Below are positions 8,989 through 44,878 of a stretch of DNA of 63,251 nt, one piece after another. Source of the stretch: a virus. The notes under the pieces are model-generated. The model did no database searches, was not told the origin of the DNA, and saw nothing but the letters and a program-made list of their open reading frames with translations. The number at the start of each line of letters is the position of its first letter. Position 1 is the stretch's first letter. Location of the stretch: the IMG/VR virus record IMGVR_UViG_3300042569_000591, positions 1 through 63,251 of that record. One strand, 5' to 3'. Made by a program: the position numbers and the translations under genes.

Positions 8989-9128
8989 TGTTTTGGGTGT
9001 ATTAATTGGTTAGCGAATAAGCCAAAGTTGGCCATTGTTTGTTTTGAAATGTTGGTTCTACCTTTCATGATTTCGTAAGCAATCATCGCATCTATCAATG
9101 ATTGCTTCATGTTGATTCTTTCGTGCAT
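8985..9128 (-). CDS. Hypothetical 47-residue helical protein
   Basis: The frame MHERINMKQSLIDAMIAYEIMKGRTNIS is followed by MANFGLFANQLIHPKQ. It is helical with a possible small helix-turn-helix plan. An internal ATG (Met7) is an alternative start. It overlaps its upstream neighbour by one base (TAATG) and the downstream one by ATGA. Confidence 0.45.
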   Translation of the reverse strand: MHERINMKQSLIDAMIAYEIMKGRTNISKQTMANFGLFANQLIHPKQ

Positions 9129-9238
9129 TATCTGTATCTAAAAGGGATTAATAACTTGCGAGTCTTAACTAACACGCCTTCCTGAAAGAAGCCGATGATT
9201 TCATAACTGCCCTCGATTCTGATTACTCTTGTTTCCAT
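9128..9238 (-). CDS. Hypothetical 36-residue protein, first annotated gene of the left operon
   Basis: The short frame METRVIRIEGSYEIIGF is followed by EGVLVKTRKLLIPFRYR, an all-beta pattern. It is the first gene after the structured ~430-nt leader that begins at the promoter 9673-9704 (a 14-codon frame, MTNQYIKGDRNDKA, lies further up in that leader). Its size makes it uncertain, but the TAATG junction to the next gene supports translation. Confidence 0.4.
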   Translation of the reverse strand: METRVIRIEGSYEIIGFFQEGVLVKTRKLLIPFRYR

Positions 9239-9667
9239 TTTTATTTGTGTTGGTTAGTGGTGCAGTGAGTATCGCTCTCATTAATTAGTCATTCTAACTG
9301 CACCTAATATCTTGTATGCCACGTGAAACTGCATACCCTCTTTTATTCCCTACAGGCATCACCATTGGGCCTGTGGTTTTGACGTTGACCACCTGAGTAG
9401 TGTATCAATCGTCCCGACTTTGCGGAGTCTTTATACTTACCGCATCGGCCTCGTATGACCTACCGAGTTAGTTTATTGTCTTACATGATGTCAAAGAACT
9501 TAGCTTAGAGCTTGTTAGCAGACCTACCTTTGAACCACTTAACCACGGTGGGCTCCCCGAGGGGCACTTAGTTAAGCTTTATCGTTTCGGTCACCTTTAA
9601 TATACTGATTCGTCATCGTAACGCCTTAAGGATTGCTTTAAGAAGTATTGTTATTAGCTCGTTTGCT
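9239..9667 (-). ncRNA. Long structured leader or noncoding RNA
   Basis: The transcript predicted from the promoter at 9673-9704 runs ~430 nt before the first annotated gene and carries a series of perfect stems. These are GGTGCAGT/ACTGCACC (9259-9266/9297-9304); GTATGC/GCATAC (9314-9319/9331-9336); ACAGGC/GCCTGT (9352-9357/9369-9374), which shares two bases with GTGGT/ACCAC (9373-9377/9388-9392); and CCGA plus TGCGG with CCGCA plus TCGG (9414-9425/9440-9448). Further along are CTCG/CGAG (9450-9453/9464-9467), CTTAAC/GTTAAG (9538-9543/9571-9576) and CCCC/GGGG (9555-9558/9561-9564). Its only reading frame of note is a 14-codon one (MTNQYIKGDRNDKA) near the 5' end. It may be a stand-alone RNA or a cis-acting leader. 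Confidence 0.55.
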
Positions 9668-9672
9668 TGATA

Positions 9673-9704
9673 CAAATATATGGCAACAATTCGGATTGTG
9701 CAAA
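9673..9704 (-). promoter_or_regulatory. Strong Bacteroidota-type promoter for the left operon
   Basis: On the minus strand, TTTG (complement of 9701-9704), 20 nt, then TATATTTG (complement of 9673-9680). Both boxes and the spacing match the Bacteroidota consensus. It directs transcription into the structured leader and the small-gene operon, so it is the likely early promoter. Confidence 0.7.
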
Positions 9705-10341
9705 TAATTTGAACAAAAATATTCAAAAAAGTGCTAATTTATATTCATTCTAAATAAGAGACACGTTTGTCTGACGGCTAATTGCTTTAGAATCAGTAAG
9801 TTACGACTATAGTAACCTCAATAGCACTCAAATAGGTTTGCTTTGTGAATTGATAGGTAGGTGCAACCCTCTCTCTCCGGGAGCGCAACCAACAGCGCAA
9901 ACAAACGAACGGCCGGCCGTCAGGCGCACCGAATGAACGGCTGTTTGATTGGTCTCAAAGTCTATTCTATTTAACATAATGCTAATTATATAACATGCCT
10001 ACCTACCGACTACGACAAACGGCAACAAGGCATGTAGGCCGTCTATATTGGTATTGACGACAAACGATAGGCCGACTGGAAAAGCCAAAAAGTTCGGCCG
10101 AAAAGTTCGAAAAGCAGACCCCCCTACCCAAAAAGCAAACCGTTTCCCTTCCGGCCTGGCTCGCGTCAGATGGGGGTATTACCCAAAACCTCTATACATC
10201 TAAAAATCATTATATTTGCAGTATGATCATAACACTCTATCCGACGTTCGGCCTATCAGTAGGTTTTGACTATTTGCCTGCAGAAGGGGACCTTCGGCCG
10301 GAGTTTCTTTTTCATTTGTTTATTTTTAAATTATCTATATC
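9705..10341. other. Divergent noncoding region with hairpins
   Basis: No convincing gene is visible on either strand. Structures seen are TTTGAA/TTCAAA (9708-9713/9722-9727), ATTCTAAA/TTTAGAAT (9747-9754/9786-9793) enclosing AGACA-CGTT-TGTCT, the 12-bp palindrome ACGGCCGGCCGT (9909-9920), ACATGCCT/AGGCATGT (9993-10000/10028-10035) and the direct repeat AAAAGTTCG (10088-10096, 10101-10109). The stretch is visibly richer in G+C than nearby intergenic DNA. No tRNA cloverleaf was found. It could contain a rightward noncoding RNA, an origin or packaging signals. Confidence 0.5.
10211..10218 (+). promoter_or_regulatory. Possible -7 box (TATATTTG) upstream of the rightward genes
   Basis: TATATTTG matches the Bacteroidota -7 element perfectly, but no TTG is present 19-20 nt upstream. 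It lies 123 nt before the ATG at 10342. It may need an activator or be used late. Confidence 0.35.
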
Positions 10342-43459: not shown

Positions 43460-44878
43460 ATGTCAACTAATAATCAAAACATATTTGGATACATGCCTGT
43501 TGAGTCAGTCGACTGGGCAAAGGGCTTCAATGATTTATCCAAAACAATTGGTGGTATTGGAGAAAGACGCGAAAAAGAAAAGGAAGAGCTTGATAAATTA
43601 AAGGATGACAATATAAAAACAATCCAACAGTCTGATTCATTTGCTAGTCAGAATTTTGGACAGATGATGCTTGGTGGATCTCAAGATGGTGTTGCCTTAA
43701 TGAAGCAGTGGAACGATGCTCTTAAAAAAGGTCAATTAGATCCAAAACAATACAAGCAAAACGTCAACAACTTAATGGAAAGCTGGAAAACGCTAGGTAA
43801 TAGTGTTAAAAGCTTTGACGCTAAAAATGCTGAGCTTCAGAAAATGATTAAAGATAATAAGGCATCTAAAGCTTCTATTGAGGCTGCTCAATATTTTGCT
43901 AGAATGGGTGAACTTAAAAATCTAAAGGTATTTATAGATCCATCAACAGGAACAGTAAGCACAGGAAGACTAGACCCTAAAACAGGACGGGTTATCCCAG
44001 ATACAATAGAAAGTGCAAAGACTATTGCTGATCCAAGTAATGCTGTTTTCGATAAAGTAAATCTTGACGAGGCTGTTAATGAGACAACTAAGCTTTGGAA
44101 AGATTATGTAGTTGAGAATGGATTGACAACTATAAGTGATCTTAGAAAAAATCCAATGTTTGCGTCAAAAATGGCTGACTTAAAAGGAGCCTTGACTAGC
44201 AACGATCGTTTGACTTTAAGTATTCTTCAGGATAATACTGATGAGGACTATTCAACTTATTATACCAATGAAGACAGGGTTGCTTTAATGGAGCAAATGG
44301 TCCAAAGAGAAAACGAAATAAGAGCTTACCAAGATAAAGGCAAGCTAACTGGATCAGAGCTTCAAGAATTCTTAAATAAGGCCGAACAAAAGCTTATACC
44401 TATGCAGAAAGATCCATCTGGTGTTTATCAACCTATGTTGACTGAAGCACAAAGAGAGGAAGCTAGAAAAGCAATTGACACTGCAGCAGCTCTTCAACTT
44501 GGATTTAAAGTGATGCAGGATGAACCTAAAGCCCCATCTGGTGGAGGTGGTTCAACTCCAAAAGAAGATAAGCCAGAATACTATGCATTGGCTTCTCAAG
44601 TTAGAAACGCTTGGCTAGATGGTGATGTTGAAAGATTAAACACTTTGTCTGCTGGTAAATTTATATTTGAGAAAGTTGGCAAAGGAACATATAGAGTAAT
44701 AAATTCAGCTAATCCTAAAGACGTTAGGGGTCCATTTAATTACATTAATGATGTTGGGCCTTTCTTTGGAACTAATCAAGGTTCATGGATTAAGCAAATG
44801 AATAAAGCTAGAACAGCAGCTGGAGTACAACAACCTGCTGGTAAAAAACAAACATCTTCTGGTATTAATTGGGGATAA
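43460..44878 (+). CDS. Internal virion (ejection) protein candidate
   Basis: This 472-residue protein is mostly helical and charged: NDLSKTIGGIGERREKEKEELDKL, then QNFGQMMLGGSQDGVALMKQW, then ESWKTLGNSVKSFDAKNAEL. A Gly/Pro linker (APSGGGGSTPKEDKPEY, about residues 356-374) precedes a small C-terminal domain. Order and character match the second ejection protein of podoviruses. There is no lytic transglycosylase motif. Confidence 0.6.
   Translation: MSTNNQNIFGYMPVESVDWAKGFNDLSKTIGGIGERREKEKEELDKLKDDNIKTIQQSDSFASQNFGQMMLGGSQDGVALMKQWNDALKKGQLDPKQYKQNVNNLMESWKTLGNSVKSFDAKNAELQKMIKDNKASKASIEAAQYFARMGELKNLKVFIDPSTGTVSTGRLDPKTGRVIPDTIESAKTIADPSNAVFDKVNLDEAVNETTKLWKDYVVENGLTTISDLRKNPMFASKMADLKGALTSNDRLTLSILQDNTDEDYSTYYTNEDRVALMEQMVQRENEIRAYQDKGKLTGSELQEFLNKAEQKLIPMQKDPSGVYQPMLTEAQREEARKAIDTAAALQLGFKVMQDEPKAPSGGGGSTPKEDKPEYYALASQVRNAWLDGDVERLNTLSAGKFIFEKVGKGTYRVINSANPKDVRGPFNYINDVGPFFGTNQGSWIKQMNKARTAAGVQQPAGKKQTSSGINWG

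Follow-up and report, generated by a model that had tools for sequence, protein, structure and literature searches.

The window analysed here is the whole of a 63-kb virus record (IMG/VR record IMGVR_UViG_3300042569_000591, 63,251 nt). Its terminase (TerL) shares 69% identity with that of Podoviridae sp. ctfjg026 (MW202828) and ~43% with those of Flavobacterium elemo phages, and these identities make a Bacteroidota host likely. The minus strand carries an early/replication operon, composed of small genes followed by those for RadC (Pfam, 7.8e-32), an exonuclease and an SSB-like protein, with a helicase and a primase-like protein coded on the same strand across the record ends. Two terminator-like stems stand in tandem within this operon after the SSB-like gene (847-832 and 813-788, minus strand). 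A GroEL gene is found on the plus strand, opposite to the leader described below. The first gene of the operon (9128-9238, minus strand, taken from the ORF list) codes for a 36-residue protein, for which a protein search yielded no phage match.

A promoter (9673-9704, minus strand) precedes this gene at a distance, with TTTG at -33 (9704-9701), a 20-nt spacer and TATATTTG at -7 (9680-9673). The preliminary description had recognized it as a consensus TTTG-N20-TATATTTG promoter, and this reading is borne out by its conservation in the relatives, where the promoter element is kept together with the RNA, and by its fit to the published sigma-ABfr consensus, TTTG/TAnnTTTG (PMC7366714). Transcription probably starts from this adjacent sigma-ABfr-type promoter. 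About 430 nt of negligible coding capacity extend from the promoter to the ATG at 9238, of which ~410 nt constitute the conserved extent of a structured leader RNA (9252-9668, minus strand), whose 5' end is predicted from the promoter and whose 3' boundary is set by conservation up to CUAACC. A large, stem-rich leader with almost no coding sequence had likewise been proposed, and the homologues and covarying helices described below confirm it. In contrast, no role can be upheld for the 14-codon ORF pointed out in it (ATG at 9616), as it is not conserved; compensatory changes (ACAAGC-GACGA-GCCAUGU) in L018, L008 and L033 remove its ATG, indicating that this ORF is a by-product of a helix.

IMG/VR was searched with the phage GroEL, which yielded 80 loci at 51-100% identity. 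BLAST and profile searches identified the leader in syntenic position in more than 50 of these loci, a count that includes some contigs present twice under different locus identifiers (the family comprises about 50 phage contigs), and a scan for the promoter end plus the 5' hairpin added a few further contigs. All relatives are metagenomic contigs, and one of them, L007, is so nearly identical to the window that both may derive from a single phage. With the RNA delimited by its two ends, the collection comprises 41 distinct 3' domains and 39 distinct whole RNAs of 318-690 nt. The leader is always found on the early-operon strand, 5' of the first gene and mostly directly behind a TTTG/TAnnTTTG promoter. 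The promoter end plus 5' hairpin matched only one of 84,980 bacterial and archaeal species genomes (Fischerella), approximately the number expected by chance. In nucleotide searches of named phages, only chance AT-rich matches upstream of the promoter were found, and the L061 and L047 RNAs gave none. Rfam covariance models produced no usable match, either at gathering score or at E<=10, for the window stretch or the relatives. By these comparisons, the leader is a previously uncatalogued family of modular structured RNA, known from phage contigs.

The single-sequence fold of the window leader is weakly better than that of shuffled sequences (z -1.8, 3/100), which alone is no proof; that the leader is real follows from its syntenic homologues in dozens of loci and from covarying helices. 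In alignments obtained with MAFFT or a model, 31 pairs proved significant against a phylogeny-aware null, and none outside the structure. These pairs are distributed over the 3' domain called R1 (11 of 15), M4-M5 (10 of 38) and M3 (10 of 36); the null was a custom GTR+G simulation of alignments along the inferred tree without structure, rather than R-scape. The possibility raised in the preliminary description that homologues lack compensatory changes decisively fails, such changes being abundant. Judged by comparison with its homologues, the leader is a folded RNA in which helices, a 5' hairpin, a linear boxA motif and a three-way-junction 3' domain are conserved.

From 5' to 3', all on the minus strand, the leader begins with a hairpin, AGC-AAACGA-GCU (9656-9667), at its predicted 5' end, the loop of which is almost invariant while the stem covaries (GGC..GCC, CGGC..GCCG and AGGC..GCCU in relatives). 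Domain M3 (9503-9625) follows, in which covariation supports a hairpin with a GACGA loop (9620-9615/9609-9603), a long helix (9577-9562/9557-9537) and a closing helix (9591-9589/9524-9522); M3 also harbours a conserved GGUUCAAAG. Domain M4 (9381-9450) has three covarying helices (9450-9448/9418-9416, 9443-9440/9425-9422 and 9413-9410/9384-9381) and a hairpin with a conserved UACUCAG loop. The first two of these helices bear out, in part, a nine-pair bulged helix proposed earlier (9414-9425 with 9440-9448). Next comes a covarying hairpin, ACAGGC/GCCUGU (9352-9374). It had been suggested that two overlapping stems sharing positions 9373-9374 might form a switch, but only the 9374-9369/9357-9352 stem is supported, with 93% pairing and two-sided changes, which leaves the switch unsupported. 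M5 (9314-9336) is a hairpin, GUAUGC-AGUUUCACGUG-GCAUAC, with a nearly invariant loop; it is 100% paired, with two-sided changes in five of six pairs, and contains the best-covarying pairs of the M4-M5 alignment set.

Between M3 and M4 lies a linear boxA-like motif, GTTCTTTGACATCATG (9484-9499, minus strand), which matches the family consensus GTTCTTTGACATATTG at 14 of 16 positions. The boxA element binds NusB-S10. At least eight of the nine bases of the core, GTTCTTTGA, are present in ~31 of the 39 distinct RNAs, and the neighbouring bases vary; the remaining ~8 RNAs (L048, L051, L061, L069 and others) have no good boxA. From these counts, boxA appears as a frequent part of the leader family, not an obligatory one. 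As a control, we used the rRNA operons present on plasmids in the collection. GTTCTTTGA is found ~120-225 nt upstream of the 16S gene in Rufibacter, Hymenobacter, Persicobacter, Aureibacter, Prevotella and Segatella, and the Flavobacterium 16S leader has GTTCCTTGA in its place; there was no clear boxA match in the Chryseobacterium and Flammeovirga rRNA leaders. In E. coli, boxA was reported to be necessary and sufficient for the assembly of the rRNA antitermination complex (PMC10250234). Its sharing with Bacteroidota rRNA leaders suggests that the early operon is subject to Nus-factor antitermination, with boxA as the putative Nus-loading site. Hairpins flank boxA, none of which is a recognisable boxB, and no phage N-like protein was found among the proteins scanned.

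The 3' domain, R1 (9252-9304, minus strand), is a three-way junction followed by CUAACC, which ends just 5' of the first start codon. It is made up of a 7-bp P1, a P2 (UUAG/CUAA), a UUNA joiner and a P3 with an AGCGAUA loop. An eight-pair stem proposed earlier (9259-9266 with 9297-9304) largely coincides with the consensus P1 (9304-9298/9265-9259, 99% paired), except that 9297 pairs in P2. The R1 covariance model has one match in the window (83.7 bits, E 5.4e-19) and exactly one per record carrying R1, except for an additional weak antisense match in L060 (3319-3365), due to the near-palindromic character of P1. In the R1 alignment, 99.7% of the cells are paired, two-sided changes occur in 14 of 15 pairs and sliding the partners destroys the pairing. 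Helix sequences change around a set of invariant unpaired bases (U27 U28 A30, A36 G37 C38 A40 A42 and C62 A64 A65 in alignment A3), the invariant features being the UUNA joiner, an AGCRAHA loop and C.AA after P1. Such bases would be equally consistent with a ribozyme, a nuclease site and a protein site. No hammerhead core with all its stems is present in the window leader, and we therefore rejected the idea that R1 is a hammerhead. The Rfam models for twister, twister-sister, pistol, hatchet, HDV and hairpin ribozymes have no match at E<=10 in 9100-10100. The topology of R1, with its 7-bp stem and D-like and T-like arms, is suggestive of a tRNA-like domain, but this identity was also discarded, as there is no tRNA model or ARAGORN match and no canonical T-loop.

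In nearly every leader, the 3' end is (C/U)UAACC or a sequence close to it, located shortly before the first ATG. In L044 and L049, R1 is absent from the whole record, and a type I hammerhead (CUGANGAG...CGAAAC...GUC/UUAACC) is found at the 3' end of the leader instead; that of L044 has an E value of 4.5e-5 with Rfam Hammerhead_1, below the gathering score. L049 retains both M4 and M5, and its hammerhead starts within a few nucleotides of M5, exactly in the usual place of R1. Altogether, we identified 19 distinct hammerheads in the relatives (CUGANGA/GAAA/NUH core, three stems), all with a predicted cut at UUAACC just before an ATG, and none in shuffled sequence. Most are under the Rfam gathering cut-off (best 29.2 bits versus 34), and 3 of 39 records pass E 0.001. 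The carriers, which include L036, L039, L044, L049, L055, L061, L062, L064, L065, L103, L111 and L142, harbour up to several each in intergenic gaps of the early operon, with the predicted cut at NUH|UUAACC. Both L033 and L008, which are closely related to the window, have a hammerhead-like element 5' of another gene, its stem II being bulged. The 3' boundary of the leader is taken up by a tRNA-like module in L071, for which mascRNA is the best Rfam match (20.5 bits, E 0.05, below cut-off), and by a simple hairpin in L065. In the haloviruses HF1 and HF2, a hammerhead is located 13 nt before the first early gene, and a transcript 5' end was mapped there; clustered hammerheads are known in phages and may cut long phage transcripts (PMC3088659). 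As hammerheads occupy the same position in L044 and L049, R1 should be a release element too, a role that we infer from positional equivalence only.

Across the relatives, the RNA is built as a series of domains that can be exchanged. Over lead positions 377-735, L033 shares 92% identity with the window, but it has a different, longer 5' module, and the middle domains of L047/L055, L039/L036 and L048/L051 are unrelated by sequence. In ~20 relatives a T-arm-like hairpin is inserted just 5' of the 3' domain (GGUGG-UUCGAUU-CCACC, with a changing stem, then UAUAUAAG). Its carriers are L039, L047, L048, L055, L061, L064, L069, L071 and ~12 more, all with the canonical UUCGAUU loop and then an invariant UAUAUAA. 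Such module swapping suggests exchangeable binding partners for the other domains of the RNA. At least a dozen kinds of first gene follow the RNA, and the RNA mostly ends 8-18 nt before the ATG; because the first gene varies while the RNA end stays near the ATG, a switch for one gene is unlikely. The preliminary description had missed several features, namely the boxA of rRNA type, the modular build of the RNA, the changing first gene and the hammerheads that replace the 3' module in relatives.

We tentatively favour, with a confidence somewhat short of even, the reading that the RNA is an early-operon antitermination leader that becomes detached, at its 3' end, from the mRNA, over that of a trans-acting ornate RNA. 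The leader would be transcribed from the adjacent sigma-ABfr-type promoter, and the emerging boxA would be bound by host NusB-S10; with other Nus factors, RNA polymerase would become termination-resistant, as it does at lambda nut sites and in rRNA operons, and would then transcribe processively both the long untranslated leader and the gene-dense early/replication operon. Cleavage at or next to (C/U)UAACC, carried out either by a host nuclease or by the RNA itself, would free a discrete ~410-nt leader RNA and leave the mRNA with a short unstructured 5' end. The early/replication genes that follow the leader and the tandem terminator-like stems inside the operon argue for antitermination, but antitermination alone does not require 400-700 nt of folded RNA.

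Alternatively, the RNA could be a stand-alone, large non-coding RNA acting in trans, loosely 'ornate', with boxA protecting its own untranslated transcription and the operon merely downstream. Its size, its many domains gained, lost or swapped among relatives (as in L033, and in the 318-690 nt range), the release module at its 3' end and the T-arm-like module all speak for such an RNA, which we nevertheless consider rather unlikely. It is present in one copy per genome, always flanked by the early promoter and the early operon and never elsewhere, and this fixed position suggests a cis role. Furthermore, it matches known ornate RNAs neither in sequence nor by model. The preliminary description had evoked ROOL and GOLLD, which like the phage leader are large, elaborately folded and phage-borne, and GOLLD similarly combines a conserved 3' region with a variable 5' one (PMC12286853). 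However, neither the window stretch nor the relatives match the Rfam ROOL, GOLLD and OLE models, be it at gathering score or at E<=10, so the Rfam comparison lends no support to that relation. The phage leader also differs from ROOL and GOLLD in carrying boxA, in heading an early operon and in not being near tRNA genes, there being no tRNA or tmRNA gene in the window or in the loci of 17 relatives.

Compatible with either of these readings, R1 (9304-9252) might represent a new class of self-cleaving ribozyme that releases the boxA-bearing RNA from the early mRNA. Its exact positional replacement by hammerheads, its invariant unpaired bases amid strongly covarying helices of changing sequence and the lack of match to any known ribozyme model are in line with this proposal. 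We nonetheless regard it as improbable, since R1 occurs in one copy per phage and in the leader only, whereas hammerheads recur before many genes, its three-way-junction joiners are short, and a protein or a nuclease might just as well bind its invariant bases. Finally, although a long structured 5' UTR close to a start codon, together with the overlapping stems proposed earlier, might evoke a riboswitch, an attenuator or a translation switch acting in cis on the first early gene, this is highly improbable, because the RNA is kept while that gene differs in many relatives, the overlapping stems are not conserved, there is no Rfam riboswitch match and the hammerhead cut in L044 and L049 would separate leader from gene. 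The riboswitch and short-ORF attenuator ideas were dropped, as neither the gene nor the ORF is conserved.

Returning to the antitermination leader that we favour, close parallels are found in the rRNA operon leaders of Bacteroidota and E. coli, which likewise have a boxA core in an untranslated leader behind a strong promoter; the phage leader differs from them in that it heads an early operon and that large covarying domains surround its boxA, located ~170 nt from the start. Lambda nut and HK022 put are also cis-acting RNA signals near the start of phage early transcripts, and nut contains a boxA. The nut and put sites span tens of nucleotides. In contrast, the phage leader has 318-690 nt and no recognised boxB-N pair. 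As for the phage hammerheads (HHphage of HF1/HF2), sister phages of the window carry such elements, whereas the 3' domain of the window is a different three-way junction.

These analyses thus add a large structured RNA family absent from Rfam and so far found only in Bacteroidota-type phages. Its proposed function, ribosomal-style antitermination of early genes, is little studied in Bacteroidota. The natural swap between R1 and hammerheads provides a candidate new ribozyme, and if R1 is one, these phages would exchange whole ribozyme classes, R1 and hammerhead, at a single processing site.

A leader that cannot be aligned with the family is found at the matching place of MW202828. It comprises a promoter, a boxA (ACGTTCTTTGACATATGG), a T-loop-like GGTTCGAGG and then CCCTAAC 5' of the first gene. 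This analogous leader is located at ~43470-43830 of MW202828.1 (L004 31470-31830), and the hypothetical protein UOF82533, annotated antisense over it, is probably spurious. In the window, the region upstream of the promoter (9705-9975) is non-coding and also conserved in close relatives, and may hold control sites or an origin. It is followed, between the divergent operons, by a G+C-rich intergenic region (9975-10340) with several CGGCCG-type inverted repeats.
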